A stretch of 64,000 nucleotides of DNA from the NCBI RefSeq assembly GCF_022758145.1, contig NZ_JAJVDH010000003.1:186001-250000 (forward strand), written 5' to 3'. This document shows positions 3,660 through 49,240 of this stretch, one piece after another. Within the stretch, counting starts at the first letter, position 1, and the number at the start of each line of letters is the position of its first letter. The position numbers and the translations under genes are program-made. Under the pieces are notes generated by a model that saw only the letters and a program-made list of their open reading frames with translations, made no database searches and was not told the DNA's origin. Origin of the DNA: Pontibacter vulgaris (GTDB taxonomy: Bacteria > Bacteroidota > Bacteroidia > Cytophagales > Hymenobacteraceae).

Positions 3660-4301
3660 ATGAAGAAAAATCTCCTTCTGGCACTAATTTTTATAACAAG
3701 TATCGGCTTGTTAAGCAGTTGCGAAACCCGTAATTCTACTTCGGAAGATAATTACATTGAAGTTATTGGCGAGTATGAGCAGCCCGCCCCCGATGCCGGT
3801 TACCGTTTAAACCTGTCGTATAACGGACCCATTAGCTTGCGCCCCAGGTTTCAGAAATGGGCCGATTCGTTGCAGCAGCAATTCCCAAGCATGACTAAAA
3901 TGAATGAAAATATCTTCCTGAATTATATGCCCGAACAAATGGGGAAAAACATAAACCGGAACATGTACCAGATTGGAGTTTCCTATAACCTGACCGTTTC
4001 TGATACTGCCTCTTACAACCGGATCACCCGCGAAGCCCTGAAGCGTAATATTCCTTTTAACCTGAATGTAACGGGCAGTTTTATAGAGCCAGGCAAGCGC
4101 CTTGCCGTTCAGAAAGAAATGCTTCAGAAAGCCATAGAAAATGCAAAATCAAAAATAGAGACACTTAAAGGCACTCCTGAAAAGAAGTATGTAATAGTAA
4201 GTATGGAGGAAATAGATAGCTCTGTACCATATAACCCTGAATATTATGATTTTAACAGGCGCATGGTAGCCCGCATTAAAGTAAAGGCCCGTTTGCAGTA
4301 A
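3660..4301 (+). CDS. SIMPL (DUF541)-like lipoprotein
   Basis: 213 residues. The N-terminus MKKNLLLALIFITSIGLLSSC is a lipoprotein signal with cysteine at 21. The mature part begins YIEVIGEYEQPAPDAGYRLN and has a helix rich in A, K and E (about 135-165) before a C-terminal strand ending RIKVKARLQ. This order (strand, helix of the form LQKAIENAKSKIETL, strand) resembles SIMPL/DUF541 periplasmic proteins. The assignment comes from pattern, not a clear signature, so function is left open. A terminator with AAGTATA in both stem arms follows at 4391-4422. Confidence 0.6.
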   Translation: MKKNLLLALIFITSIGLLSSCETRNSTSEDNYIEVIGEYEQPAPDAGYRLNLSYNGPISLRPRFQKWADSLQQQFPSMTKMNENIFLNYMPEQMGKNINRNMYQIGVSYNLTVSDTASYNRITREALKRNIPFNLNVTGSFIEPGKRLAVQKEMLQKAIENAKSKIETLKGTPEKKYVIVSMEEIDSSVPYNPEYYDFNRRMVARIKVKARLQ

Positions 4302-6577
<2,276 letters not shown>

Positions 6578-6597
6578 GTATAAAATAACAGTAATTG

Positions 6598-6636
6598 AAA
6601 AGCCGGCTATACTTTAAAGTATGGCCGGCTTTTTTA
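6598..6636 (+). terminator. gyrB rho-independent terminator built on the TATACTT word
   Basis: Left arm 6598-6615 (AAAAGCCGGC then TATACTTT) and right arm 6616-6633 (AAAGTATG then GCCGGCTTTT) form an 18-bp inverted repeat with a single G-T wobble, followed by a T-run. The central part is an inverted pair of the signature word (one arm AAGTATG). Confidence 0.88.
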
Positions 6637-6653
6637 TTGGCAAACTATAAGTA

Positions 6654-6794
6654 TTAATGCAGGAATAATGTATCTTCAGGATTAGTAAAATTAGGTAATA
6701 TACCTTCGCACATAGTGCAGATAAGCGTATGTTTTCGTTTATCCGTTAGTTCTCTGTAACCTGATTTAATAAAAAATGTATCTCTAAACTTCAT
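6654..6794 (-). CDS. Small hypothetical protein (46 aa) with a CxxC
   Basis: Minus-strand ORF from ATG at 6794 to TAA at 6654: starts MKFRDTFFIKSGYRELTDKR, contains CTMC and ends DTLFLH. The composition looks protein-like and there is no competing gene on either strand. It lies in the AT-rich island just past the gyrB terminator and is divergent to the small ORF at 6803. I recognise no family; the CxxC could bind metal. It may also be a remnant. Confidence 0.35.
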   Translation of the reverse strand: MKFRDTFFIKSGYRELTDKRKHTLICTMCEGILPNFTNPEDTLFLH

Positions 6795-6802
6795 GATTTT
6801 TT

Positions 6803-7018
6803 ATGCTTCTATTCTTAGGGTGCAAAGAATCCGAAGGAAGCTTAGAAGATGAATGTAAAGAATTCCTGTTCCCTGGACCTTTAAAAGGCGAGAAAGCAGA
6901 TATACAATTCATTTTACGTGTAATACATGCAGATTACTTGGAATATAAAGCCTGGGAAGTACTACATAAGCTCTGTGGAGGCTACATCGACAACTTTACA
7001 GTAGACTTGAGAATCTAG
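6803..7018 (+). CDS. Small hypothetical protein, possible lipoprotein or remnant
   Basis: 71 residues beginning MLLFLGCKESEGS, which looks like the tail of a lipoprotein signal (LFLGC) with its front missing: a TGA stop lies in frame just upstream, so no longer start exists. The rest is acidic and mixed, with no family I recognise. It is followed by two still shorter ORFs (7060-7140 and 7137-7178), which suggests a decayed gene. Confidence 0.3.
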   Translation: MLLFLGCKESEGSLEDECKEFLFPGPLKGEKADIQFILRVIHADYLEYKAWEVLHKLCGGYIDNFTVDLRI

Positions 7019-7059
7019 AAGGAAAAGCCTGAAACAACACCAAAAGAGCATTAAATAAT

Positions 7060-7140
7060 ATGAATCCAGCTGATGCACGCATCAAATCAGAGGCATTACA
7101 GGGCTTCTTCAGATTCTTCTCTGTAATTTTTAATAAATGA
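7060..7140 (+). CDS. Very short ORF (26 aa), doubtful
   Basis: ATG 7060 to TGA 7140 encodes MNPADARIKSEALQGFFRFF plus six residues. A 13-codon ORF (7137-7178) overlaps its stop by ATGA and ends one base before the GTG start of the AraC gene. Either a chain of tiny translated ORFs coupled to the regulator, or fragments of a frameshifted gene. No family recognised. Confidence 0.22.
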   Translation: MNPADARIKSEALQGFFRFFSVIFNK

Positions 7141-7178
7141 TCACAGAAACCAGTTTCCCGGAGAAGTCTCTCCAGTAG

Positions 7179-7934
7179 GTGTTAAAAGAATACTACTGCA
7201 TCCATATACAGAATGATAGTGTTATAAAGCACATACCTGTCATAGACGATTGCTGCTATGATTTTGTGTTCTTTGAAGAAATGGATGCCGACTTTCTTTA
7301 TGGAAGCAAGACAGAGTTCATTCCGATAAACAACCAAGTCTTCACCATTCATGGCCTAAAACCACCTTACAGAATTGCGATCAGGAACACACTTACATTT
7401 TTTGCCATCAAAGTACAGCCTTGGGTTAATTCTTATTTTTTCTCTAATGTAAAAACCAGAGGCGTGGTGGATTTGGCAAACGTAGATTCAAGCTTATTGG
7501 ATCTACATGAGGATTTATTCAAAGAACAACCTTTGGCCAGCCGGTATTCAATTGCAGATCTGTATATGCTAAATAAATGTATCAGGCTAACACCCACAAT
7601 GGAAGTTGTGAAATCACTTTGTGTTTACATTTATGACAAACAAGGAATTCTTACGGTTAATGACCTTAGCGCTGTTTTTAATAAATCCAGGCAATACCTG
7701 AACAAGGTTTTTAAGAAAGAGGTCATGTATAGCCTGAAGAAGTTTATCATTACGGTACGCATTCTTGCTTTGGTAAAACACAAGGTAAAAAATACCGAAC
7801 TATCCCTCACCCAGCTAAGCTATGAATTCGGATACTTTGATCAATCTCACTTTATTCGTGATTTTAAAAATGTTTGTGGTGTAACACCCCGTCATTATTT
7901 CAATAATATACCTGAGTTTGTACTTCGCCACTAA
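7179..7934 (+). CDS. AraC family transcriptional regulator
   Basis: 251 residues from GTG 7179. The C-terminal half has the paired helix-turn-helix of AraC proteins: LTVNDLSAVFNKSRQYLNKVFKK (about 160-182) and LSLTQLSYEFGYFDQSHFIRDFK with GVTPRHYF (about 209-242). The N-terminal half resembles the DUF6597-type ligand domain of Bacteroidota regulators; effector unknown. It sits 59 bp upstream of the serine hydrolase gene in the same orientation and may control it. AT-rich codon use and no AAGTATA copy set it apart from its neighbours, which suggests recent transfer. Confidence 0.88.
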   Translation: MLKEYYCIHIQNDSVIKHIPVIDDCCYDFVFFEEMDADFLYGSKTEFIPINNQVFTIHGLKPPYRIAIRNTLTFFAIKVQPWVNSYFFSNVKTRGVVDLANVDSSLLDLHEDLFKEQPLASRYSIADLYMLNKCIRLTPTMEVVKSLCVYIYDKQGILTVNDLSAVFNKSRQYLNKVFKKEVMYSLKKFIITVRILALVKHKVKNTELSLTQLSYEFGYFDQSHFIRDFKNVCGVTPRHYFNNIPEFVLRH

Positions 7935-7993
7935 AGTGGTTTCCATTTTTACAATTAAGAGCGCATAACTTGTTTTTCCTTTGCGAAAAAAAG

Positions 7994-9313
7994 ATGAGGT
8001 ATATTTTAACTTTATGTATTGCATTCACTTTCACGGGTTGTAGTCCACGTATTCACTCAGAATCGGATACCACTATCGCAGCAAAAGATTCATTGAGTAT
8101 CGTAAGCGATACTTATCTAGCCCGGCTTACCAAATTAGAAAAATTCAACGGTGTGGTGCTACTGGAAAAGAACGGGCACATCATCTTGAGAAAAGCTTAT
8201 AACATAGGCACAGACACCTCCTCGTCGCTTTTTGTAACTGAAAAAAGCCAGTTTGACTTGCGGTCAGTTGCAAAGTTGTTTGCGAAAGTAAGCCTGGTAA
8301 AACTAGAAAATGAAGGCAAGCTTAAAAGAACGGATCTGCTGGAGAGATACATTCCCGGTTTTCCGAATGGCGATAAAATAACCATCCAGCATCTTATGGA
8401 TAACCGCTCCGGTTTACCCAGAGAATTAGGAGCAAGCGTCAAGCATCCCATTGAGCTCACTGCTGATGAAGTGGTTGCCCTTGCTGCCAAAGAGGCTTTA
8501 GAGTTTTCCCCCGGTACTAAACAGCAGTACTCCAATGTTGGTTTTCAACTTTTGTACTACATAATTGGTCAGCTGCATGGGGGTTCCTTCTCGGGTTTTC
8601 TCGAGAACGCTTTTTTCTGGCCTTTAGGCATGAACCATTCAGGAGGTAACTTTGATGAAGATCTAGGTCGATTAACAGATTATGCCTACGGACATTACCT
8701 GAATGACGATAATAGCATTGTCTGTGAATGTTCGGTCCTGGAGAATGAAATGAAGATGGGGAATTTACATTCAACCGCAGATGATCTGGCCTTATTCCTG
8801 AAAAAGCTGGACCAACAGAATTATAAGTCAATAACCCATAATGGGAGCATTTCTCATGCCGGAGGAACCCGCGGGAAAAGGGCGTATGTAGAGAGAAACT
8901 TTGAAGACCAGTATACCATCATTTTTCTCGCTAATTACGATGCGCTTCCTTTTGAAAAGCTTGTACGTGATTTACAAAGTATCCTGAGAGGGCAAACAGT
9001 TAAAATGCCGGAAGCCATTGATCGTAAATCAGTTTACATTTCACCTGCTATTCTTAAGAAATATGAAGGGACTTATGATCTTGTAGATGCTGGTCACCTA
9101 ACGCTGACCATAAAACTTGAAAATGATAGTCTATATGTATATCAAAAAGGTATCAATAACGGAGTATTATATCCCGAAAATGAGAATACATTCTTCTCAG
9201 ATAAAACATCTGAAGAGTCTATCAGATTTGTAGAAGATAAACCAGGAGAGTATTTTATACTAATGGATTTTCAAGGTGTGCAATGGAAAGGAATCAAGAC
9301 ATATGGGAATTAA
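7994..9313 (+). CDS. Serine hydrolase, beta-lactamase class C family lipoprotein
   Basis: 439 residues from ATG 7994 (MRYILTLCIAFTFTGC), a lipoprotein signal with cysteine at about 16; an upstream start at 7970 would bury this signal. The class C / penicillin-binding fold is shown by S-V-A-K in DLRSVAKLFAK (SxxK nucleophile), YSN in KQQYSNVGFQ, and HAGG near the end of the catalytic domain. About 110 C-terminal residues form a lipocalin-like tail. Such proteins are often D-aminopeptidases or esterases rather than resistance enzymes; substrate unknown. AT-rich and free of AAGTATA, like the AraC gene before it. Confidence 0.88.
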   Translation: MRYILTLCIAFTFTGCSPRIHSESDTTIAAKDSLSIVSDTYLARLTKLEKFNGVVLLEKNGHIILRKAYNIGTDTSSSLFVTEKSQFDLRSVAKLFAKVSLVKLENEGKLKRTDLLERYIPGFPNGDKITIQHLMDNRSGLPRELGASVKHPIELTADEVVALAAKEALEFSPGTKQQYSNVGFQLLYYIIGQLHGGSFSGFLENAFFWPLGMNHSGGNFDEDLGRLTDYAYGHYLNDDNSIVCECSVLENEMKMGNLHSTADDLALFLKKLDQQNYKSITHNGSISHAGGTRGKRAYVERNFEDQYTIIFLANYDALPFEKLVRDLQSILRGQTVKMPEAIDRKSVYISPAILKKYEGTYDLVDAGHLTLTIKLENDSLYVYQKGINNGVLYPENENTFFSDKTSEESIRFVEDKPGEYFILMDFQGVQWKGIKTYGN

Positions 9314-37482: not shown

Positions 37483-38763
37483 TTGAGTTTAGCCGAACGC
37501 GATCATAACGTTATCTGGCACCCGTATACCCAGATGAAAACTGCTGCCCTTCCTATACCTATAGTTCGGGGCGAGGGTGCGCTTTTGTACGCTGAAGACG
37601 GCACAAATTATATTGATGCCGTTTCGTCGTGGTGGGTTAATTTGCACGGCCACGCACACCCTTACATTGCGCAACAGGTGGCTGAACAGTTGCAGACACT
37701 GGAGCACGTTATTTTTGCCGGTTTTACACATCCGGCTGCTGTTACGTTTGCCGAGCGCCTTATAAAGATTCTACCGCAGGGCCAGAGCCGGATTTTCTAT
37801 TCAGATAATGGTTCTACAGCTGTAGAAGTAGCCTTGAAAATGGCAATCCAGTATTGGGAGAACGTCGGTACTCCTAAAAAAAAGATCATCGCCTTCCGCG
37901 ACAGCTACCATGGCGATACCTTCGGGGCTATGTCGGTGAGTGCCCGCAGCGCGTTTACGGCACCTTTCTGGCCATACCTGTTTGATGTATCTTTTATAGA
38001 TGTACCCATTCCCGGCAATGAAGCGGAAACTATACAACAGCTTGAAGCACTAGCCAAAACAGGCGACATGGCAGCTTTTATTTACGAGCCTCTGGTATTG
38101 GGTACTGCCGGAATGGTAATGTATAAACCAGAGGTATTGAATAAGCTAGTTCGGATTTGCCAACAGCACAACATCCTGACCATTGCCGACGAAGTAATGA
38201 CAGGATTTGGACGCACCGGTCGCATTTTCGCAAGCGATTACCTTGAACTTAAACCTGACATGACCTGCCTTTCGAAAGGTTTGACAGGCGGAACAATGGC
38301 TTTAGGAGTAACTTCCTGTTCACATAGAATTTACCAGGCTTTCCTGCACAACGATAAAAGTAAAACATTCTTCCATGGGCATAGCTATACGGCCAACCCT
38401 GTAGCTTGTGCTGCCGGCCTGGCAAGTATGGATCTGCTGCTGCAACCCGAAACACAACAAAGTATAAACCGCATCAGCAGCAGCCACGCAGCTTTTGCCG
38501 AAAGTATAAAAGTACTGCCAAACATAAAAGAAGTACGCCAACAAGGTACTATACTGGCTGTGGAATTTGAAGTTGGCTGCACTTCCTACTTCAGCAACCT
38601 GCGCGATACGCTTTATAATTTTGCCCTGGAGCAGGGAGTTATACTTCGTCCGCTCGGAAATATCATTTACATAATTCCGCCTTACTGCATCGCAAAAGAC
38701 CAACTTGAGAAAGTATATCAAACCATACTTGGGATGCACGAACTGGTAGTTGCGGCAAAGTAA
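37483..38763 (+). CDS. bioA: Adenosylmethionine-8-amino-7-oxononanoate aminotransferase
   Basis: 426 residues, class III aminotransferase. WHPYTQMK near the N-terminus is the BioA fingerprint; PLP lysine K265 in CLSKGLTGG; DEVMTGFGRTG and SWWVNLHGHAHP also fit. Moves the amino group of SAM to KAPA, giving DAPA. The start must be TTG 37483, because no ATG precedes the conserved AERDHNVIWHPYT segment in frame. Followed directly by the ketoacyl synthase gene. Confidence 0.95.
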   Translation: MSLAERDHNVIWHPYTQMKTAALPIPIVRGEGALLYAEDGTNYIDAVSSWWVNLHGHAHPYIAQQVAEQLQTLEHVIFAGFTHPAAVTFAERLIKILPQGQSRIFYSDNGSTAVEVALKMAIQYWENVGTPKKKIIAFRDSYHGDTFGAMSVSARSAFTAPFWPYLFDVSFIDVPIPGNEAETIQQLEALAKTGDMAAFIYEPLVLGTAGMVMYKPEVLNKLVRICQQHNILTIADEVMTGFGRTGRIFASDYLELKPDMTCLSKGLTGGTMALGVTSCSHRIYQAFLHNDKSKTFFHGHSYTANPVACAAGLASMDLLLQPETQQSINRISSSHAAFAESIKVLPNIKEVRQQGTILAVEFEVGCTSYFSNLRDTLYNFALEQGVILRPLGNIIYIIPPYCIAKDQLEKVYQTILGMHELVVAAK

Positions 38764-38771
38764 TTTATACA

Positions 38772-39983
38772 CTGGTAGCAGCTAAACAACATATTGTTAT
38801 CCGGGGCACAGGTGTTATCTCGCCGCTTGGTCATGATGCTGCGTCTGTTAACAAAGCTTATACCGCAGGCCAGCCCGCTTTTAAAAACATACTTCATAAT
38901 GGCGAGCTAACACCAGTTGCACCCTTAGCTGCGCGTGCCGAAGATGAGCTGCAAAAGCTGCTGAAAACTAACCCAAGTTACAAGCAACTTGACAGATCGG
39001 TATTGCTGGCCATGTATGCAGCCAGGCAGGCGGCAAATGAAGCAGGCTGGCTACATGAAAATGCACCAGTTTCAGATGATCTGGCAGTAAATATTGGATC
39101 ATCACGCGGGGCGACGGGCCTATTTGAACAGCATTTTGAATCCTTTCAGCAAAGTATAAACGGACAAACACTTCCGGGCGCATCGCCTACTACTACACTC
39201 GGTAACTTATCCAGTTGGGTAGCCCATGCTGTAAATGCAGGCGGCGCTCAAATAAGCCACTCGATTACCTGCAGTACTGCTCTGATGGCAATTGCCAATG
39301 CTTCGGCGTGGTTACGTTCAGGTATGGCTCAGCGTTTTCTGGCTGGAGGCACTGAAGCCCCTCTTACCCCCTTTACCATTGCACAGATGAAAGCGGTAGG
39401 CATTTACTCAAAACTGACTGATTCCCCCTATCCTTGCCAACCTTATACTTTAAGTAAACAGAATACTTTCGTTCTTGGTGAAGGTGCCGCTGTTTTCGCG
39501 CTGGAGTTAGCGGATGAAACCAGTTTAAAGCAGGGCGATATAATAATAGAAGCTGTTGGCCTGGGTTTTGAAAAGATTGTAAGTAAAACCGGCATATCAA
39601 CGGAAGGCATCAACTTTCAGAAGGCAATGCGGCACGCGCTGTCTCAACTTCCTGCAAACGACCAAAAAATTGACCTTATTGTCACCCACACCCCCGGAAC
39701 CAAAGCCGGAGACAGTGCCGAACTACAAGCTATTGATGCCATATTTAAGAATGAATCAGTGGCCATAACAACAAATAAATGGTTAATTGGCCATACTTTA
39801 GGAGCTTCTGGCGCTCTTAGTTTACAGTATGGTATGCATTTATTATCATCACAATGCATGAACCAACTCCCCTATTTTTCTGAAAATATTTTCGCTTCTA
39901 ATTATCCTATCCTTCGCATACTTATAAATGCAGCTGGTTTTGGCGGTAATGCTGCCAGCATTGTCCTTAAGGTTATACCTTAA
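38772..39983 (+). CDS. Beta-ketoacyl synthase with non-standard start, in the biotin cluster
   Basis: About 404 residues if begun at CTG 38772. Reading upstream of the first ordinary start (TTG 39003) gives AAKQHIVIRGTGVISPLGHD, the conserved N-terminus of FabF-type enzymes, so the gene begins there; the frame is open back to 38709 and has no ATG, GTG or TTG in that stretch. Catalytic cysteine (about C167) in SITCSTALM, histidines in VTHTPGTKAGD and IGHTLGASGA. It follows bioA by about 8 bp. A role in making the pimeloyl chain for BioF is inferred from position. Confidence 0.75.
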   Translation: MVAAKQHIVIRGTGVISPLGHDAASVNKAYTAGQPAFKNILHNGELTPVAPLAARAEDELQKLLKTNPSYKQLDRSVLLAMYAARQAANEAGWLHENAPVSDDLAVNIGSSRGATGLFEQHFESFQQSINGQTLPGASPTTTLGNLSSWVAHAVNAGGAQISHSITCSTALMAIANASAWLRSGMAQRFLAGGTEAPLTPFTIAQMKAVGIYSKLTDSPYPCQPYTLSKQNTFVLGEGAAVFALELADETSLKQGDIIIEAVGLGFEKIVSKTGISTEGINFQKAMRHALSQLPANDQKIDLIVTHTPGTKAGDSAELQAIDAIFKNESVAITTNKWLIGHTLGASGALSLQYGMHLLSSQCMNQLPYFSENIFASNYPILRILINAAGFGGNAASIVLKVIP

Positions 39984-40312
39984 CCGACTTTAGTTCATTT
40001 ATTTATCAGGTAGTTACCAATTCAAAGTATAAACATAATTTAATCTTATCCATTATCTAAATAATCAAAATAGATATTTCAACTAATCCAAATAGTACTA
40101 TTTAAATCATTTTAGTTATAACTAAAAATAGCTGTTTTTAATTTCTATACTATATAGTAATAAATCTATATAGTATATTGGGTCATAATTGTATCTTTTA
40201 ACCACTATAAACTTATACTCTTATGACTTAATATTAAATTATTTATCAGATACACAATAACTTATCCCTCAATATAACTTAGTTTATTTTAAATATTACT
40301 TTAGTTAACTCC
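39984..40312. other. AT-rich upstream region of surface protein 1
   Basis: Strongly AT-rich. Holds AAGTATAAA near 40025 and a 12-bp perfect inverted repeat (40146-40157 with 40166-40177). No coding potential and no clear promoter box. Confidence 0.5.
40146..40177. promoter_or_regulatory. 12-bp perfect inverted repeat
   Basis: TATACTATATAG (40146-40157), 8-nt spacer, CTATATAGTATA (40166-40177). Lies 136 bp before the start of the first surface-protein gene. Could be an operator or an RNA hairpin; there is no T-run, so a terminator is unlikely. Confidence 0.45.
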
Positions 40313-42904
40313 GTGAAAACTGCTTTTAAATTACTCTTCAATATTTCTACTTTTCTTATTGTAAATCTTATTTGTACTAATAGTAAACTTTTAGCCCAGT
40401 CTCAAACTTTTACAGTACAACCTCAAAATCAGTATATTTGCTCCTCAGGAGCTCAGGCTACTTTTAATGCTACATTAAGCTCTGCTAATGGCAATGGAAA
40501 TGGTGTCAGACTAAATACATTCTGGCAAGTAGACAAAAAAGACGGTGTAGGCTGGCAATTATATGGCACCATAAGTTACCCAGCTAAAACAGCAAATAAT
40601 CTTTATACCATTTCACTTTCAGTAACCCCAACTGCAGCTGAGTTAAATTACTCGTATAGAGCTGGATTTAGCGAGGGTGATGGCAAACCAGCTGTTTACT
40701 CAAATATTGTTATGATAAGTAATGCTACTCCATCAACTGCACCAACTACATCAGGAGATATAAGGACAGGACAGGGCACGGTAACCCTTAAAGCTTCCGG
40801 TGCCCCAGTAGGAGGTAATTACAAATGGTATAATGTCTCAACGGGGGGCACATCGATTTATACTGGAAATACTTATTCACCATATTTTGATTCTCCTGCT
40901 ACAACTACAGTTTATACATATTATGTTTCTATAGTTAGTGCTCCTGAACAAGGCGGATGCGAAGGGCCAAGGTCAGCAGTTACTGCAACTGTACATCCAG
41001 CATTTTCACCAATTGTTGCCAATGATGTTATAACTAATATGAACTTGATCTCAAATAGTGATGGACCGATAGCTATTGATGCATTAAGTGCTTCTTATCC
41101 AGAGAATCCTGCCTCTCCTCCTTATACTGCCTCTTATATAATTACTCCTCCTCCTAGCACGCAAGGTGTACTTTATGTTGATACTACCCCTATAACAGCA
41201 ACCCGAACAATTACTCCCGCAGAGGCAAAGCTGCTTAAGTTTGATCCAGCATCTACTTTTTATGGCGTGGCTTCTTTTACATTTAAAGCAATAGATAATA
41301 GTGGGAATACCAGTTCCAATGATGCTACCTATAGTCTACCTGTAAATGCTGCACCAGTAGCTTTCAACGTATCTTCAGGAAACCTGACAAAAAATGTTAG
41401 ATCAATAATACCTCTGCTTAACGCAACAGACCCAGACGGAAATATTGTAAGCTATACCATAGTTAGTTTACCTACACCTAGCCCAGATCAAGGAGAACTC
41501 TATTTAGGACCTTCAGGAGGATCGCCATTAACTGTTAATCAAGTAATTAATACAAACCAGCTATATTATGAAGCACCAAACGCTAATGGCCTCACCCGTA
41601 CTTTCACTTACAGAGCTACAGATAACAAAGGTGTAATTTCGAGCACAGCAACTTATTATTTATATGTAGGAACTACTACCCCGCCCACTGCAGCTAATGT
41701 CACAATTGCAACAATGCCTAATACGTCTGGATCAACTACTATCAGCCCTTTAAGCGCAATAGGTGGTACAATAACCAACTATGGCATTTTAGCGTCATCT
41801 GTACCTACCTCTGCTATTGGGTTATTATATACCGGCTCCACTTTAGTCACTACACTTACATTGGCAGGTGGGTATTATACTTTAACTCCTGCTCAAGCTG
41901 CTAATTTAAATTTCGATCCAGCTTCCACTTATTCAGGTACTGTTACTTTTACTTACACAGCAACAAGCTCGAACGGTACGTCTCCAAATGCCACCTATAC
42001 CATACCGGTAACTTATCCCCCTGTGGCAAAAGATCTTACTTCCTTAATAGATCCTAACCTATCAACAGCACAATCAATTGCAGCTTTATCTGCCACAGAC
42101 CAGGATGGAAGTATTTCTAACTTTATAATTACTTCTTTACCAGCTCTAACTCAGGGCAAACTAACTTTATACGGTGCGGATGTTACTGGGAACCAGGTAT
42201 TAACACCGCTTCAGGCAAAAGACTTAAAATTTGTAAAAGGGTCAAACTTTACAAGCCCGGTTACTTTTAAATACAATGCCACAGATAATATGGGTGTTAA
42301 GGCTGGAAGCGATGCAACTTATAACATTAAATCTTCTGTTCCCCTGCCAGTAGAGCTGGCCTATTTTACAGGCACCTACAACGGCAGCACGGTTATGCTC
42401 AAATGGCTGACAGCTTCGGAAAAGAACAACGAGAAGTTTATCATCGAACGTAGCAGCAACGGCAAAACCTTCGAGGTTATCGGGCAGGTAGCTGGCCAGG
42501 GCGACAGCTTCCAGGCCACCCGCTACAGCTTCACCGATCAGCAGCCAGGTGGCCACCACCTCTACTACCGCTTAAAGCAGGTAGACTTTGACGGCACCTC
42601 TACCTACAGCAAGATCATTGCCCTGACCGGCACAACTGCTACCCAAAGCCAGCTGATCCTGACGGCCTACCCTAACCCGACAAAAGGCTTATGCACGGCC
42701 TTGGTCACAAACCAGGCAGCCGGCAACAGCCACATCCAGCTTCTTGATCTACAGGGCCGCCTGGTGCTGCAAAAAGAGCTTTACCTGGAAAAAGGCCTGG
42801 CCGAGATCCCGCTTGACCTAAGTAATACTGCCACGGGCTTATACCTGCTGCAGGTGCAAACCGGTAACCACACCCGGCAAACCAAGGTCCTCATCAGCAG
42901 GTAA
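40313..42904 (+). CDS. Large T9SS surface protein with cadherin-like repeats
   Basis: 863 residues from GTG 40313. Signal about 1-29 (ends LLAQ). An Ig-like region (30-140), a PKD/Ig-like unit (about 143-222), then four ~110-residue cadherin-like units (about 225-680) sharing endings such as FTYTATSSNGTSPNATYTI. Residues about 675-780 (PVELAYFTGTYNGSTVMLKW) resemble a fibronectin-like linker. The end, TAYPNPTKGLCTALV ... TGLYLLQVQTG ... KVLISR, is a type A T9SS sorting domain, so it is sent to the cell surface. The coding DNA before 42341 is AT-rich; the last part is GC-richer and matches the next gene. Confidence 0.85.
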   Translation: MKTAFKLLFNISTFLIVNLICTNSKLLAQSQTFTVQPQNQYICSSGAQATFNATLSSANGNGNGVRLNTFWQVDKKDGVGWQLYGTISYPAKTANNLYTISLSVTPTAAELNYSYRAGFSEGDGKPAVYSNIVMISNATPSTAPTTSGDIRTGQGTVTLKASGAPVGGNYKWYNVSTGGTSIYTGNTYSPYFDSPATTTVYTYYVSIVSAPEQGGCEGPRSAVTATVHPAFSPIVANDVITNMNLISNSDGPIAIDALSASYPENPASPPYTASYIITPPPSTQGVLYVDTTPITATRTITPAEAKLLKFDPASTFYGVASFTFKAIDNSGNTSSNDATYSLPVNAAPVAFNVSSGNLTKNVRSIIPLLNATDPDGNIVSYTIVSLPTPSPDQGELYLGPSGGSPLTVNQVINTNQLYYEAPNANGLTRTFTYRATDNKGVISSTATYYLYVGTTTPPTAANVTIATMPNTSGSTTISPLSAIGGTITNYGILASSVPTSAIGLLYTGSTLVTTLTLAGGYYTLTPAQAANLNFDPASTYSGTVTFTYTATSSNGTSPNATYTIPVTYPPVAKDLTSLIDPNLSTAQSIAALSATDQDGSISNFIITSLPALTQGKLTLYGADVTGNQVLTPLQAKDLKFVKGSNFTSPVTFKYNATDNMGVKAGSDATYNIKSSVPLPVELAYFTGTYNGSTVMLKWLTASEKNNEKFIIERSSNGKTFEVIGQVAGQGDSFQATRYSFTDQQPGGHHLYYRLKQVDFDGTSTYSKIIALTGTTATQSQLILTAYPNPTKGLCTALVTNQAAGNSHIQLLDLQGRLVLQKELYLEKGLAEIPLDLSNTATGLYLLQVQTGNHTRQTKVLISR

Positions 42905-42963
42905 AACCTATACCACTCCCACAGCACACCAAAAGCCGGACATCGTGCCGGCTTTCTCATTTT
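42341..42963 (+). repeat. C-terminal sorting cassette, copy 1 (about 620 bp)
   Basis: Direct repeat of 47187-47809. The first about 270 bp are identical by eye, the remainder differs at a few tens of positions at most, and homology continues past both stop codons through the terminator. Confidence 0.9.
42931..42958 (+). terminator. Terminator after surface protein 1
   Basis: AAAGCCGG ... CCGGCTTT hairpin, 8-bp stem, followed by a short T-rich tract; homologous to that at 47777. Confidence 0.7.
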
Positions 42964-43424
42964 TATACTGGTATACTGGTTAACTGAATTGAACCGCCAA
43001 ATGTAGTTGCACTGAAATTTAGTTAAACCTTAATTAATAGCAAGTTGAGTATGAAGATGAAAAGCAAAACCTCATTAGGCTATTGGCGCTATAAACTATA
43101 ATTTTTCAAATAAAGCTTTTCCAGTATCACTATTTTTTATTCCATTTTCTGGAAAATTCATTCCTATTAATAGAAAACCTTTCCTAGCAACTATGCTTTC
43201 AAATCTTTTTAAGTTTCTGAATTCCCCTAATGAAATATCTAAAACACTAATTAATAACTCATTATAAGTACTTAATAAATTAAAAATATTACATATAAAG
43301 ATAATACTCTAAGGCACGGTTTTATCATACTATAAAGAATATATAACATATCTGATTAAGGCAAATTGCACTTTTAAGATATATTATTTAATAAACCTGA
43401 AGGCATTAGTATTTTATCTTTCAA
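42964..43424. other. AT-rich gap between the two surface-protein genes
   Basis: About 460 bp of very AT-rich DNA. Apart from the minus-strand remnant at 43096-43308 I see no gene, no promoter box of the TAnnTTTG form and no AAGTATA word. Confidence 0.5.
43096..43308 (-). pseudogene. Probable gene remnant
   Basis: Minus-strand frame open for about 70 codons between stops at 43309 and 43096. It reads NELLISVLDISLGEFRNLKR, then FESIVARKGFLLIGMNFPEN and a short tail, which looks like real protein sequence, yet there is no ATG, GTG or TTG near its 5' end. Most likely the 3' end of a gene whose front was lost, perhaps when the surface-protein region was rearranged. Family not recognised. Confidence 0.35.
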
Positions 43425-46400
43425 ATGAAATTTCCTAGTTTGTTACGCTCGTTGAAGTTTATAATTGCGATTATTTTGTTTGTTTATACTTATGCTTCTC
43501 AGGCTCAGACACTTGGTTTGATATATAAACCAGCAACAAACGGAGGTAACAAAATTCTGGATCCAAATGGCGACGGGTATGTTTCTAAAACAACTTCTGG
43601 TTTTCCGGGGGCTAACATGGACGAAGGTGCTGCTTATAGCGAGATCCCATACCAGCCCTTTCCGGTATTCATGAACGAGCCCCTTTCAGACCTTTCTACT
43701 GGTTCTAAAGGCGGCCATACCGACTATGCTCCTAAAGTTTTTGACGCATCTGGTAAACCAATCGGATCCCCTTTGGCAACATACTTTGATGGCACAAATT
43801 TCCTCTTTCGTGTCAGGCTGGGTGGTCAATCTACAGCATCTAAGGGTTATAGTATTCTGATAGATATAAATAACGATGTAAGCGGAACAGGTATAAATCC
43901 AGGATTTGAATTTGAAGTGGTATTGGCCACTAACTTCGATGTCCGGATTTACGATCACAGAACAAACACTACAGGCGGCACTATTATTTTTAACGGTTCA
44001 GTAGATCAGTATTCCCAAAAAGCAATCGCGGCCTCGCTAGGAGGTGGCGATGCTGATTATTTCTATGATTTCTACGTGCCAATGGCGGCATTTAACGGCG
44101 GCATTACAGCAAGCACAACTTTGCGTATGACAGGCGTAACAGTTACCAGTGCTAAAAGCGGCATATTTGGAATAGCCTCAGACTTAGGAGGAGTTGATGA
44201 TCAGAAGTATAGCGGCAATATAACCGGCGCCTGGAAAGATGCAATCAATAATGCTCCTGCCACATCGCCTACAGGCATACAAACAGGAGGCTTTGCGGCG
44301 GTTTATGCCAAAGCACCGGTTGTTACAGCCCCCATACTTACAACCAGCACATCTGTTACAGGCTACTCAGTTGAAGCTGCAGGCTCTGTAATTAGTGTGT
44401 ATCAGGGCTCAACGCTACTCGGTACAACAACAGTAACATCAACCGGCACCTGGACACTCAGCACCTTCTCTACTCCGCTGGTAGCAAATGGCGTTATTAC
44501 AGCCACCGTAAAACCTGCGGATAAATCCTTATCCCCAAAATCTGCAGAAGTTATAGTTAAGACGGTGCAAAGTATGTGTAAGACTTCGCCTCCCATCATT
44601 ACAGGTAGTGATGGTAGTAAGGGTTTCTTTATCACTACTTATGAATCCGGCACTCTTAGGATCTTTAAACTTACTGCACCTAATACATGGACTTTAGACA
44701 AAGTATTCGCTAATACTACACCCGGCACTTCCGTATCATATGCTTACGGAACGGCAGCTAAATCTCTACCTGATGGCACCTATTATGCTACTTTGTTACC
44801 TTCAGGAGGTTGTGAGTCTGAAAGATCAAATGAAATTTGCTTTATCGCCGACAACGGTAATAACGGCACATCAACAACGCTAGTAGCTCCTCCAACTATA
44901 ACTACAACTTCATTAAATCTATCATCAACATTACTACAAGGATCAAGCGCTGTAGCGGGCGCTAAAGTAACCATATATCAAAATGGAATAGTAGTTGGAA
45001 CGATACAGCTTGCTACTGGTGCTACTAGTTGGTCCTATACTTTATCAGGACTTTCAGCCAATGATATTTTTTATGCTAAAATAACACAAGGTACTTCGCC
45101 TTGTGGCGTTGAGCTCTCTTCAGGCAGGTCCACCACACTTACGGTAGTTGATACAAGCGTTCCTGCTGCAAGTACAGCCCCAACTATAACCGGAAACTAT
45201 TGCGGCCCCACAACTACAGTTACCGGAACATCTTCTGAGGCACCAGGCACAACGATAAAAGTATATAACGGAACTACAGTATTAGCTACCACTACTGTAA
45301 ATGCATTCGGAGCCTGGACAGCAACAGCCGCCACAAGTATAGCTTCAGGAACAAGTATAACTGCAAAAGCCACGGCCTATGGCAAGACGGAAAGTGCAGC
45401 CTCTACAGCTATTGTAATAGGCACTGTATATTCAGCTACTGGCTTAACTATAACTAACACGTCTCCTATTTACGAAGGCAGCACCAGTGTATCTGGCACT
45501 GCACCAGCCAATGCATGGGTAACGCTCTACATAAATGGTGCACCTTATGTTGATGGCGAGGGCAAAGCTATTGTAAAGCAGGCTAACACTTCTGGCGCAT
45601 GGACAATAACTGGCATTTCACCTTTTGAGCTATATGCCGGGGCTAAACTAACCATAACGGCAAAGGCATCTGCTACATCAACCTGCGAAAGCGCTCAGTC
45701 TACTGGTATAGTAGAAGTAGCCTGCATCCCTGCCAGCACAAGTATGTCAGCAGCTCTGGCAGCTTCAACCATCTGCCCTGACACACCGGCTACCATTAAC
45801 CTGTCTACTTCAGAAGCGGGAGTTATCTATAACATTTACAGAAGAACATCTCCAACTACTTACGAAACCTTTGGCAGCTCTATACTAGGCACAGGTAAAC
45901 CGATCAGCCTGAAATCAAATAACATTACTACCACAGGCACTGTACTACTGGTAAAAACTATTAAGGTGGGCGCCTCGTGCCAGTATACTATCGGCGGTGA
46001 GCTTACTGTTAATTTATATCCGCCGGTGCCAAAAAACTTTACCGTAACAGCTGTACCGGAATCTTCAACCTGCGCTAATGTAAGCACCATCATTACAGTT
46101 AAGGCTGCTGAAACAGGTTATTCTTACCAACTGATAAACAACGATACGAAGGCATCAATTGGCAGCGCCATCATCCCAACTGCGGCAGATAACGGTAAAG
46201 ATCTTGTATTCCCGGCAGTAACGGTTACTAAAACAACTACTTATGGCGTTGTAATAAAAGGTGTTACATCTGGGTGCGTAGCCGAAAACACTATCCTAAA
46301 AACCATCACCATAAGCGGAGGCCCTGATGTTACAGTACCAGTTACAGTAGATAAAACAACTATCTGTGTAAATACTTCCGTTAATTTAAGCGTAAGCACC

Positions 46401-47750
46401 CAAGGCAGCGCTTATACTTACAAGATCTATAATGAAAGCGATCCGGCAACGGCATTATTCACCTTTTCTGGTACAGGTGGTGTAGTTAGCAGAACAATAA
46501 CAACACCATTTACCACAACAGGAACTAAAAACCTTTACGTAACTGTAACAGGCGGCGGCTGCTCAGACCTGGTACTGGCAAACAAAGCAAGTATAACAGT
46601 AACCAATGGTATAGCTACACCGGTATCAGCCGGCACCGAACAAATTACCTGCGGTAACGCAAGCCTACAGCTTCAGGGTAGCAATCCTGCACCAGGCAGT
46701 GGCCTTTGGACATTAAAAACTAAACCTACAGGAGCACCAGATCCGGTAATTACAAATCCAACCTTTGCAAATGCTACAGTTACCGGATTAGTATCAGGTA
46801 CTTACGAGTTCACCTGGACTGTTTCTGCCTGTGCAGGGGCAAGCTCAAGCAGCACTGTAACCATTATTATTAACTGCACTGCAGAACTTAGTGTAAGCAC
46901 AACAAAGTTTGTACAGGATTACATTAACGGAGATATTCTGGCAGTAATTTCGGATGATAAAGATGGTGGCATTACAAGTTTCTTAGCCACTGCTACTTCA
47001 CTGCCACCTGGCACAGCTTTCAGCATCATTAATAAACAGGTAGTACTTAAAGTTACTGACATATCACTTTTGAAGGCAGGCTCTTATAGCTTCACTACGC
47101 GTACCACGGATAGCAAAACCCGAACCTCAGATACACCTATGCTTATCCGTATGTACGATTCAAATACGGCACCAAGCTCCTTTACTCCCCTGCCAGTAGA
47201 GCTGGCCTATTTTACAGGCACCTACAACGGCAGCACGGTTATGCTCAAATGGCTGACAGCTTCGGAAAAGAACAACGAGAAGTTTATCATCGAACGTAGC
47301 AGCAACGGCAAAACCTTCGAGGTTATCGGGCAGGTAGCTGGCCAGGGCGACAGCTTCCAGGCCACCCGCTACAGCTTCACCGATCAGCAGCCAGGTGGCC
47401 ACCACCTCTACTACCGCTTAAAGCAGGTAGACTTTGACGGCACCTCTACCTACAGCAAGATCATTGCCCTGTCCGGCACCACTGCTACCCAAAGCCAGCT
47501 GGCCCTGACAGCCTACCCTAACCCGACAAAAGGCTTATGCACGGCCTTAGTCACAAACCAGGAAGCCGGCACCAGCCACATCCAGCTCCTGGACCTGCAG
47601 GGACGCCTGGTGCTGCAAAAAACGCTTTACCTGGAAAAAGGCCTGGCCGAGATCCCGCTTGACCTAAGTAATACTGCCACGGGCTTATACCTGCTGCAGG
47701 TGCAAACCGGCAACCACACCCAGCAAACCAAAGTCCTTATCAGCAGGTAA
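43425..47750 (+). CDS. Very large T9SS surface protein
   Basis: 1441 residues. Signal about 1-28 (ends ASQAQ). Residues about 30-290 form a distinct N-terminal domain (LGLIYKPATNGGNKILDPNGDGYVS, a dockerin-like calcium loop, through DLGGVDDQKYSGNITGAWKD). Then several Ig-like units rich in Thr and Ser (about 300-1100) with motifs such as GTTIKVYNGTTVLATTTVNAFGAWTATA, typical of bacterial Ig/adhesin domains, two units with paired cysteines, and the same linker plus type A sorting domain as the previous protein (last 190 residues). Likely adhesin or surface polymer. Ends in a copy of the shared cassette. Confidence 0.85.
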   Translation: MKFPSLLRSLKFIIAIILFVYTYASQAQTLGLIYKPATNGGNKILDPNGDGYVSKTTSGFPGANMDEGAAYSEIPYQPFPVFMNEPLSDLSTGSKGGHTDYAPKVFDASGKPIGSPLATYFDGTNFLFRVRLGGQSTASKGYSILIDINNDVSGTGINPGFEFEVVLATNFDVRIYDHRTNTTGGTIIFNGSVDQYSQKAIAASLGGGDADYFYDFYVPMAAFNGGITASTTLRMTGVTVTSAKSGIFGIASDLGGVDDQKYSGNITGAWKDAINNAPATSPTGIQTGGFAAVYAKAPVVTAPILTTSTSVTGYSVEAAGSVISVYQGSTLLGTTTVTSTGTWTLSTFSTPLVANGVITATVKPADKSLSPKSAEVIVKTVQSMCKTSPPIITGSDGSKGFFITTYESGTLRIFKLTAPNTWTLDKVFANTTPGTSVSYAYGTAAKSLPDGTYYATLLPSGGCESERSNEICFIADNGNNGTSTTLVAPPTITTTSLNLSSTLLQGSSAVAGAKVTIYQNGIVVGTIQLATGATSWSYTLSGLSANDIFYAKITQGTSPCGVELSSGRSTTLTVVDTSVPAASTAPTITGNYCGPTTTVTGTSSEAPGTTIKVYNGTTVLATTTVNAFGAWTATAATSIASGTSITAKATAYGKTESAASTAIVIGTVYSATGLTITNTSPIYEGSTSVSGTAPANAWVTLYINGAPYVDGEGKAIVKQANTSGAWTITGISPFELYAGAKLTITAKASATSTCESAQSTGIVEVACIPASTSMSAALAASTICPDTPATINLSTSEAGVIYNIYRRTSPTTYETFGSSILGTGKPISLKSNNITTTGTVLLVKTIKVGASCQYTIGGELTVNLYPPVPKNFTVTAVPESSTCANVSTIITVKAAETGYSYQLINNDTKASIGSAIIPTAADNGKDLVFPAVTVTKTTTYGVVIKGVTSGCVAENTILKTITISGGPDVTVPVTVDKTTICVNTSVNLSVSTQGSAYTYKIYNESDPATALFTFSGTGGVVSRTITTPFTTTGTKNLYVTVTGGGCSDLVLANKASITVTNGIATPVSAGTEQITCGNASLQLQGSNPAPGSGLWTLKTKPTGAPDPVITNPTFANATVTGLVSGTYEFTWTVSACAGASSSSTVTIIINCTAELSVSTTKFVQDYINGDILAVISDDKDGGITSFLATATSLPPGTAFSIINKQVVLKVTDISLLKAGSYSFTTRTTDSKTRTSDTPMLIRMYDSNTAPSSFTPLPVELAYFTGTYNGSTVMLKWLTASEKNNEKFIIERSSNGKTFEVIGQVAGQGDSFQATRYSFTDQQPGGHHLYYRLKQVDFDGTSTYSKIIALSGTTATQSQLALTAYPNPTKGLCTALVTNQEAGTSHIQLLDLQGRLVLQKTLYLEKGLAEIPLDLSNTATGLYLLQVQTGNHTQQTKVLISR

Positions 47751-47809
47751 AACCTATACCACTCCCACAGCACACCAAAAGCCGGACCTCGTTCCGGCTT
47801 TTTTCATTT
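47187..47809 (+). repeat. C-terminal sorting cassette, copy 2 (about 620 bp)
   Basis: Partner of 42341-42963, offset 4846 bp. Codes for the linker and type IX sorting domain and includes the terminator. Confidence 0.9.
47777..47803 (+). terminator. Terminator after surface protein 2
   Basis: AAAAGCCGGA and TTCCGGCTTTT form a 10-bp stem with a 5-nt loop, then six T. Confidence 0.88.
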
Positions 47810-47908
47810 ATACTTCCGCCCAGAATTAATGAAAGCCAATAACCTGATTTACTGCTTGCTTTTTATTAATTTTACCACTTAAATCGATACAAATTTTTTT
47901 TCACTTAA

Positions 47909-49240
47909 ATGAAAGTTTTAAAATTCGGCGGAACCTCTGTAGGATCGGCTGAGCGGATGAAGGCACTTGTGAACCTGATTCACAACGATGAGCCTAAAAT
48001 TGTAGTGCTGTCGGCTATGTCGGGCACAACAAACCAGTTGGTACAGATAACTGAAAAGCTGTACCAGAATCTTAACCAGGAAGCTAATGCGCTGATAGAT
48101 GCGCTACATACAAAGTATAAACAGGTTGTAGCGGAGCTCTACAGCACAGAAGATAAACAGAAACAGGCTCTTGAATTACTGCAACTTCATTTTGATTATA
48201 TCAGGGCTTTTACGCAGGACCTTTTTACCATACACGAAGAGCGCGCGATACTGGCACAAGGCGAGTTGCTATCAACTGCTTTATTTCAGCTATACCTGGA
48301 AGAGCAAGGTATAAACTCAGTACTGCTGCCGGCCCTCAACTTCATGAAGATAGATGAGAACGAGGAACCGGATGCCGATTACATTGCCAAAAACCTGAAA
48401 GCAGAACTGGCCAAGTATAGCGGAACAAACTTGTTTATTACACAAGGGTATATTTGTCGTAATGCTTTTGGTGAGATCGATAACCTGAAACGTGGTGGTT
48501 CTGATTACTCTGCATCATTGATAGGTGCTGCTGCTGATGTTTCCGAAATCCAGATCTGGACGGACATTGACGGCATGCACAATAACGATCCGCGCATTGT
48601 AAAAAACACTTACCCGATTGCAGAGCTATCTTTTGACGAAGCAGCTGAGCTGGCATACTTTGGTGCAAAAATTCTGCACCCGAGCAGCGTGTTGCCAGCC
48701 AAGCAAAAAAATATTCCGGTTCGCCTGCTCAATACCATGCAGCCCGAAGCTAAAGGCACAATTATTACGGCCGAAAGTGCGGGCGGAAGTATAAAAGCGA
48801 TAGCTGCCAAAGACGATATTACAGCCATCAAGATTAAATCAGGCCGCATGTTGCTGGCCTATGGTTTTTTGCGTAGTGTGTTCGAGGTTTTTGAAAGGTA
48901 TAAAACTCCTATCGACATGATCACTACGTCGGAGGTTGCTGTGTCGCTTACAATTGATAATGCTAAATTTCTGAATGAGATTGTAGCGGAACTGCAGCAG
49001 GTTGGCCAGGTAGAAGTTGATAAAGACCAGACCATTATCTGTATCGTAGGTGATTTCCTGGAAGAACGAAGCGGTACCGGCCTCAAAATATTTGAATCAC
49101 TGAAAGATATACCTTTGCGCATGATCTCTTACGGAGGTAGCAAAAACAACATCAGTGTACTGATTAACACAACAGATAAAGTAAAAGCACTTACAGCCCT
49201 TAACGATGGAATTTTTGAAAGGAGAAATATCAATGCTTAA
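47909..49240 (+). CDS. lysC: Aspartate kinase
   Basis: 443 residues. [17 protein letters not shown] is the aspartokinase N-terminal signature; [32 protein letters not shown] marks the catalytic centre; the C-terminal ~150 residues form tandem ACT domains (about 300-440), which bind the feedback effector. Phosphorylates aspartate, the entry to lysine, threonine and methionine synthesis. Monofunctional: no homoserine dehydrogenase domain is attached, and hom lies separately at 51458. Overlaps lysA by 8 bp. Confidence 0.95.

Follow-up and report, generated by a model that had tools for sequence, protein, structure and literature searches.

A site between the biotin cluster and lysC of Pontibacter where surface genes probably recombine at their export signals

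We analysed a 64,000-nucleotide stretch of the Pontibacter vulgaris genome (the window) and compared one of its sites across the genus. This site, between the biotin cluster and lysC, holds T9SS surface genes. We consider it probable that it recombines at the export signals of these genes, both by conversion of the sorting tail and by exchange of the whole body. In the window, two tandem genes have bodies without a match to each other and nearly one and the same 3′ end. In a clade of related genomes (that of G010), AU tests in both directions show that the body phylogeny conflicts with that of the flanks at one site.

Two tandem surface genes with a common 3′ end

The window belongs to genome G000 (4.19 Mb in 36 contigs). 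Gene 1 (40313..42904, + strand) encodes 863 aa from a GTG start and carries Ig_7 and Big_9 domains in its body. Gene 2 (43425..47750, + strand) lies next to lysC and encodes 1441 aa with a PKD-like domain; both products are predicted T9SS surface proteins. The usual left border of the site is what we take to be a beta-ketoacyl-synthase-like gene at the end of the bio (biotin) cluster (39003..39983, + strand), and the right border is presumably aspartokinase, lysC (47909..49240, + strand). The frame of the left border gene is open further upstream, and the open frame at 38754-39983 is about as long as in relatives. The listed ORF begins late, the part upstream of it holds no ATG, GTG or TTG, and a rare start codon is possible. 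The intergenic stretches 5′ of gene 1 (39984-40312, 20.7% GC) and gene 2 (42965-43424, 26.1% GC) are very AT-rich.

Performing blastn within the locus, we found 627 aligned positions at 96.2% identity between the gene 1 tail (42340..42963, + strand) and the gene 2 tail with its terminator (47186..47810, + strand). Near-identical ends of about 620 bp had been predicted for these two surface genes at nearly these coordinates, with the first 270 bp or so identical; the longest exact match is in fact 286 bp, from 42340 and 47186. The shared stretch runs from the motif PLPVEL through the T9SS sorting domain and the stop to the terminator, the last ~60 bp being non-coding with a hairpin. The gene 1 tail thus comprises a ~108-aa module, which has no Pfam match, followed by PF18962, stop and terminator. 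As had been expected of the ends, both contain the sorting domain (PF18962 at 46.1 and 48.4 bits, cut-off 27; TIGR04183 at 44.2 and 41.8 bits, cut-off 23) and a terminator-like hairpin, at 42932..42955 behind gene 1 (+ strand, −12.3 kcal/mol, z −3.39) and at 47777..47802 behind gene 2 (+ strand, −14.5 kcal/mol, z −5.42). Against solved structures, the sorting domain gave two weak matches (E 0.0043 and 0.052). The same genome encodes the T9SS translocon protein SprA (TIGR04189, 2439.5 bits, G000:C3:1107393-1114304). The N-terminal starts are hydrophobic and end in AQ, and read from the sequence they are signal-peptide-like. By family membership the tail is an export domain, and export to the surface is predicted. 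We infer that the bodies are adhesin-like and that their exposed part is under diversifying pressure.

The left edge of the shared stretch is sharp. Upstream of PLPVEL the identity drops immediately, to 13-60% per 30-column step, and the bodies of the two genes have no match to each other, as predicted for the upstream parts. Whole-gene duplication is ruled out, the gene bodies being unlike. Past the 286 identical bp, the tail identity is 83-100% per 30-column step. The coding tails are 564 nt long (188 codons including the stop), and all 17 codons that differ are among the last 93, a clustering with P = 2.8e-6 under random placement; 11 of the 17 are synonymous.

A collapsed or chimeric repeat in the assembly might also yield two such ends. 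An exact repeat of 286 bp is longer than a short read and the genome is in 36 contigs, which would favour an error of this kind. However, the two copies differ in 26 aligned columns, all outside the exact stretch. The same gene order is found in genomes G018 and G060, and likewise, plus one gene, in G004. Moreover, a feature of this kind is also present in G010, whose assembly has 8 contigs, on a contig of 2.0 Mb. We regard an assembly artefact as very improbable.

Likeness of sorting tails within and between genomes

We searched G000 for further copies of the cassette, as the original prediction had suggested. With all 34 of 34 candidates scored, there were two full-length copies, namely the window pair, besides two matches that are shorter and weaker (54 bp at 85% and 225 bp at 67%). 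Among the 49 sorting-domain matches in this genome, no other pair had more than 60 bp of tail in common at E up to 1e-3; nine of the 49 are under the family cut-off or above it only with a neighbour, and L124 and L138 in this set are one place seen twice. A second pair, G000:C5:319900 (L098) and C8:158711 (L105), was considered as a shared tail and rejected, as the common part is the domain before the tail. In these two loci, which are on different contigs, 483 bp at 92% stand directly before differing sorting tails. The common domain is presumably PA14-like, and it is perhaps another case of domain conversion or transfer. Searching the named genome collection with gene 1, we obtained three loci, each matching the tail only. 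When the tail was searched as protein against plasmids, 23 records matched, 16 of them from Hymenobacter and none reaching 60% identity.

In relatives, such tails are usually unlike. Bodies like that of gene 1 (38-44% aa, among the matches listed) adjoin gene 2 in G018 and G060, and in these genomes the two side-by-side genes have tails that are 50% alike in DNA (40 and 42% aa). G004 has a gene 1 body of the same likeness (38-44% aa), with a third gene between it and gene 2. Since G018 and G060 have unlike tails on the same genes, the two window tails most likely became alike secondarily, which would be due to gene conversion of the tail, as judged from relatives whose gene 1 bodies are 38-44% alike. 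The original prediction had offered gene conversion keeping the ends alike as one of two explanations, and for the window pair this one is favoured by the divergent tails of G018 and G060 and by homogenisation also in G010 and partly in G004. It had counted full-length genes with normally diverging ends in relatives against itself. Such genes are indeed present in G018 and G060; we read them as the likely ancestral state, in which case they support conversion.

Comparing 23 within-genome tail pairs from 13 genomes, we found two above 95% in DNA and 21 at 48-63% (median 53%), the G004 pair being at 63%. Shared tails occur in 3 of the 13 genomes with several tail genes (G000, G010 and partly G004). 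In G010, 559 bp at 98.2% are common to two tandem genes with bodies 38% alike, and in G004 the sharing covers 300 bp at 88% within the tail; G016 is a weak case (281 bp at 70%). In both G000 and G010 the sharing starts on the left at PLPVEL, and likeness is highest in the first half of the tail. The tail sequences of G010 and G004 match those of the window at most at ~71% over 185 bp. The window tails are 96-97% alike within G000; at the locus in other genomes, the gene that matches them best does so at 70% over 217 bp. The window tails therefore bear the marks of concerted evolution, that is, an excess of likeness within the genome that includes synonymous sites, and a patchy, sharp-edged tract.

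Strong purifying selection on the sorting signal could keep tails alike with no recombination at all, and the tail is an export domain by family. However, the identity extends to synonymous sites and to the non-coding terminator, a likeness that rules out selection alone, and 21 of the 23 within-genome pairs are no more than 48-63% alike in DNA. Of all the alternatives we find this one the hardest to credit.

Which gene gave its tail is clearer in G010 than in the window. The tail of the lysC-side gene of G010 has counterparts in G015, G059, G029, G017, G009, G063, G067 and G011 (75-85% DNA; in each genome one match over the full or nearly the full length, among the best 10 or 12 candidates). 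Because these counterparts in eight genomes carry its tail, the lysC-side gene is probably the donor in G010. In the window, the gene 2 tail finds its eight best matches in relatives all among tails of the gene 2 type, which is also the type of most tails compared, and the mean tail identities in the donor test are hardly different (41 vs 37-39%). Gene 2 is thus a possible, weakly indicated donor of the gene 1 tail.

The tails also stand out in base composition. They are unusually GC-rich at 55-56%, compared to 39.4% for the gene 1 body, 44.2% for the gene 2 body and 44.1% for the window; the body of gene 1 is the more AT-rich one, as had been noted from the sequence. The GC3 is 71-72 in the window tails, 23 and 34 in the bodies and 45 in aspartokinase. 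Expressed as the difference from the aspartokinase of the same genome, GC3 averaged +6.3 in the tails that we labelled as recombining (n = 15) and −9.7 in the other 42 (Mann-Whitney p 3e-7). This comparison covered 57 of 59 genes, those with lysC in view; the labels were assigned from these very data, and one clade supplies 11 of the 15 recombining tails. The contrast persisted when counted per genome (12 vs 33, p 8e-6). Three of the 15 recombining tails are not above aspartokinase (G009 0.0, G059 −0.9, G067 −12.1). In the two tails of G004, the first 285 nt, which make up most of the shared part, have a GC3 of 65 and 68, and the remainder 49 and 38. The excess fits GC-biased conversion; GC-rich donors would give the same picture. 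GC-biased conversion in bacteria is debated.

The lysC-adjacent site and its bodies across relatives

The gene 2 body was matched in 41 of the 50 genomes of the genus, G000 included. In the genus-wide DNA searches, the best 10 or 12 candidates per genome were scored. We mapped the neighbourhood in 40 genomes, picked for a match to gene 1 or gene 2, dropping ORFs inside larger ones; L065 and L066, other loci of G000, were left out of the comparisons. Between the biotin cluster and lysC, the site holds up to three large T9SS surface proteins. A gene-2-like gene is immediately upstream of aspartokinase in 36 of the 40 genomes, counting the broken copies of G022 and G035 and the gene of G029, which has an ORF in between. 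In G008 such a gene is behind another surface gene and a gene 2 fragment, and in G028, G005 and G068, of the 40 mapped, none was found at the site. The broken or fragmentary copies (L145 of G035, 4052-8077; L152 of G022, 4564-7337; L076 of G008, 6725-7393) suggest turnover by decay. The intervening ORF of G029 (L155, 13042-14424) lies between gene 2 and aspartokinase, encodes 460 aa on the opposite strand, is not listed at that place in other mapped genomes, and is possibly an insertion. The N-terminal ~270 aa of gene 2 (43425-44330) are 78% identical with four relatives by mean column identity. None of the five members had a Pfam match for this domain, and no solved structure matched it at E up to 0.1.

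We compared the lysC-adjacent gene in ten G010-related genomes, with classes drawn from the bodies and independent of the tail tree. Class A bodies are found in G010, G059 and G017, subclasses related to A in G029, G067, G016 and G011, and class C bodies in G015, G063 and G009; G010 and G016 additionally carry one gene of class B. The 9 pairs of an A with a C gene have 87.6% identity from −60 to +75, 49.5% in body DNA (41.7% in body protein), 84.3% in the tail and 86.7% in lysC. The same-class pairs (6) show 88.1% from −60 to +75, 77.1% DNA (82.7% aa) in the body, 83.1% in the tail and 87.4% in lysC. The body stretch takes in the first ~25 residues; G016 does not enter the means of the A2 group, and the starts annotated for the G016 and G003 genes may be wrong, lowering their 5′ identities. 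Between classes, both ends therefore show about the identity of the chromosomal neighbour, and the body falls well short of it. For example, the tails of G059 and G015 are 91% alike, with bodies 43-45% alike in aa. In the two A/C pairs with the clearest flanks, identity falls off twice. The first drop is in the 60-nt step that follows +73 or +79, at the end of the signal-peptide-like start as read from the sequence, and the second is at PLPVEL. The surface gene next door served as a control: across G010, G059, G063 and G015 its bodies are 87-91% alike in 6 of 6 pairs.

AU tests with 11 genes gave the same picture. The tail data rejected a class C clade (p 1e-4) and a class A clade (p 8e-11), and the body data (quick tree) rejected G059+G015 (p 3e-4) and G063+G017 (p 2e-4). 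With lysC, a class C clade was rejected at p 0.025, and at p 0.004 with G003 included. On the aspartokinase tree of 11 genomes, G003 being C-type, at least four changes between A-type and C-type bodies are required; this tree is partly resolved, so the species history is not firm, and the tail tree is poorly resolved outside the G010 clade. Across 700 between-genome pairs from 38 genes (non-independent pairs), identity with aspartokinase correlates at r 0.80 for the tail and r 0.51 for the body. This comparison drew on 40 of the 59 genes at the locus, with tails that start at residues 1150-1340, and on 38 of these where lysC is in view; any G068 gene, G026_1349 and the broken copies of G022 and G035 are outside the set.

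These results bear on the other explanation of the original prediction, a swap of ectodomains onto a constant sorting cassette. It fits the lysC-adjacent site of the ten related genomes, where a 5′ leader and the signal-peptide-like start are constant besides the tail. For the window pair a swap is not demonstrable, because both bodies have same-place counterparts in some relatives.

An alternative is hidden paralogy. The ancestor of the clade would have held A and C in tandem with their tails already homogenised, and differential loss would have followed, e.g. by deletion between the tails. Two different bodies (A-type and B) do stand in tandem in G010 and G016, tails that are shared form direct repeats (at a distance of 4846 bp in the window), and there are fragments or broken copies in G008, G022 and G035. 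Nevertheless, with one A and one C body as queries, A and C were found together in none of the ten clade genomes, which are mostly draft assemblies. The leader and gene start are constant too, at 87.6% between A and C, whereas a deletion from tail to tail would retain the upstream gene's own 5′ end; the 5′ ends of B and A genes (6 pairs) are 44% alike, the annotated start of G016_1502 being possibly wrong. On this evidence, hidden paralogy seems unlikely to us.

In antigenic-variation systems, a variable body stands between constant ends. The arrangement seen here resembles them, so one could imagine programmed variation from silent cassettes inside one genome. But searches with one A and one C body found no strong match off site in the ten clade genomes, mostly drafts. 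Two weak matches, at 41% over ~82 aa (G067) and at 32% (G059), do not represent cassettes of either body. The gene 2 body searched in G000 likewise gave one match, itself. We consider such a programme very improbable. As A and C were not found together in these genomes, nor strong matches off site, an origin outside the cell is most likely for the incoming body. A ComEC-like gene is present in G000, but also in 10 of 14 control genomes, and it says little. We conclude that whole-body exchange by homologous recombination in the two export-signal ends is the most likely reading of the lysC-adjacent gene.

A recombination model and its nearest known parallels

Both kinds of event could be the work of RecA-type homologous recombination. 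Between tandem copies it would act as conversion. In the window, one tail would have overwritten the other, with the lysC-side gene supplying the tail. Two rounds may have taken place, of which the older would have spanned the entire tail with its terminator and the recent one the first 286 bp; we infer both the two rounds and this donor. With incoming DNA, a double crossover in the two constant ends would install a different body that is ready for export. More tentatively, and with rather less than even confidence, we propose that the export signals are the recombination arms of a modular exchange site. With a constant leader and signal peptide on one side and a constant sorting tail on the other, Bacteroidota would there replace the whole exposed body of a giant surface protein in one step, across species and with exportability kept, and conversion between tandem tails would let neighbours trade bodies and leave a GC-rich mark.

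T9SS cargo proteins are important surface proteins of Bacteroidota. A fixed site that swaps bodies between export ends would, if true, be a simple mechanism for their diversity, through recombination at both export signals. It would also predict conflicting trees for bodies and tails in any T9SS species. With the raised GC3 of its recombining tails, the site could serve as a test case for GC-biased conversion in bacteria.

The nearest published account, going by the parts of the papers available, is that of Porphyromonas gingivalis (PMC5266723). It likewise concerns Bacteroidota surface proteins, T9SS cargo with a conserved C-terminal domain among them, which show domain rearrangement and allelic exchange, and whose diversity is ascribed there to recombination, allelic exchange and gene conversion. 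In the sections seen, it deals with modular adhesin domains and with allele types within one species; here, it is the entire mature body that differs from species to species while start and tail stay constant, and tails in tandem have become alike. The accessible parts of the literature, mostly without subscription papers, gave no account of T9SS cargo in which whole bodies are exchanged while signal peptide and sorting tail stay constant.

Other systems share single features, again as far as the portions available describe them. Short-term concerted evolution of bacterial outer membrane protein genes (mentioned in PMC6053082) also makes paralogues more alike within than between genomes, whereas here the likeness is confined to the export tail and the bodies are unlike. 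The MASP surface proteins of Trypanosoma cruzi (PMC5636173) are a eukaryotic multigene family, and shared descent is not claimed. In the archaeal Thermococcales, a gene module (PMC8416519) holds a hypervariable large Ig-domain protein at recurrent loci, much as the Bacteroidota site does, from which it differs in being archaeal. Haloferax, also archaeal, has two types of S-layer glycoprotein (PMC5867893), divergent proteins with a common signal peptide type and C-terminal sorting signal. Recombination is reported within each type, and exchange at the export ends, which we propose for the Pontibacter site, is not described in the part of that paper available.
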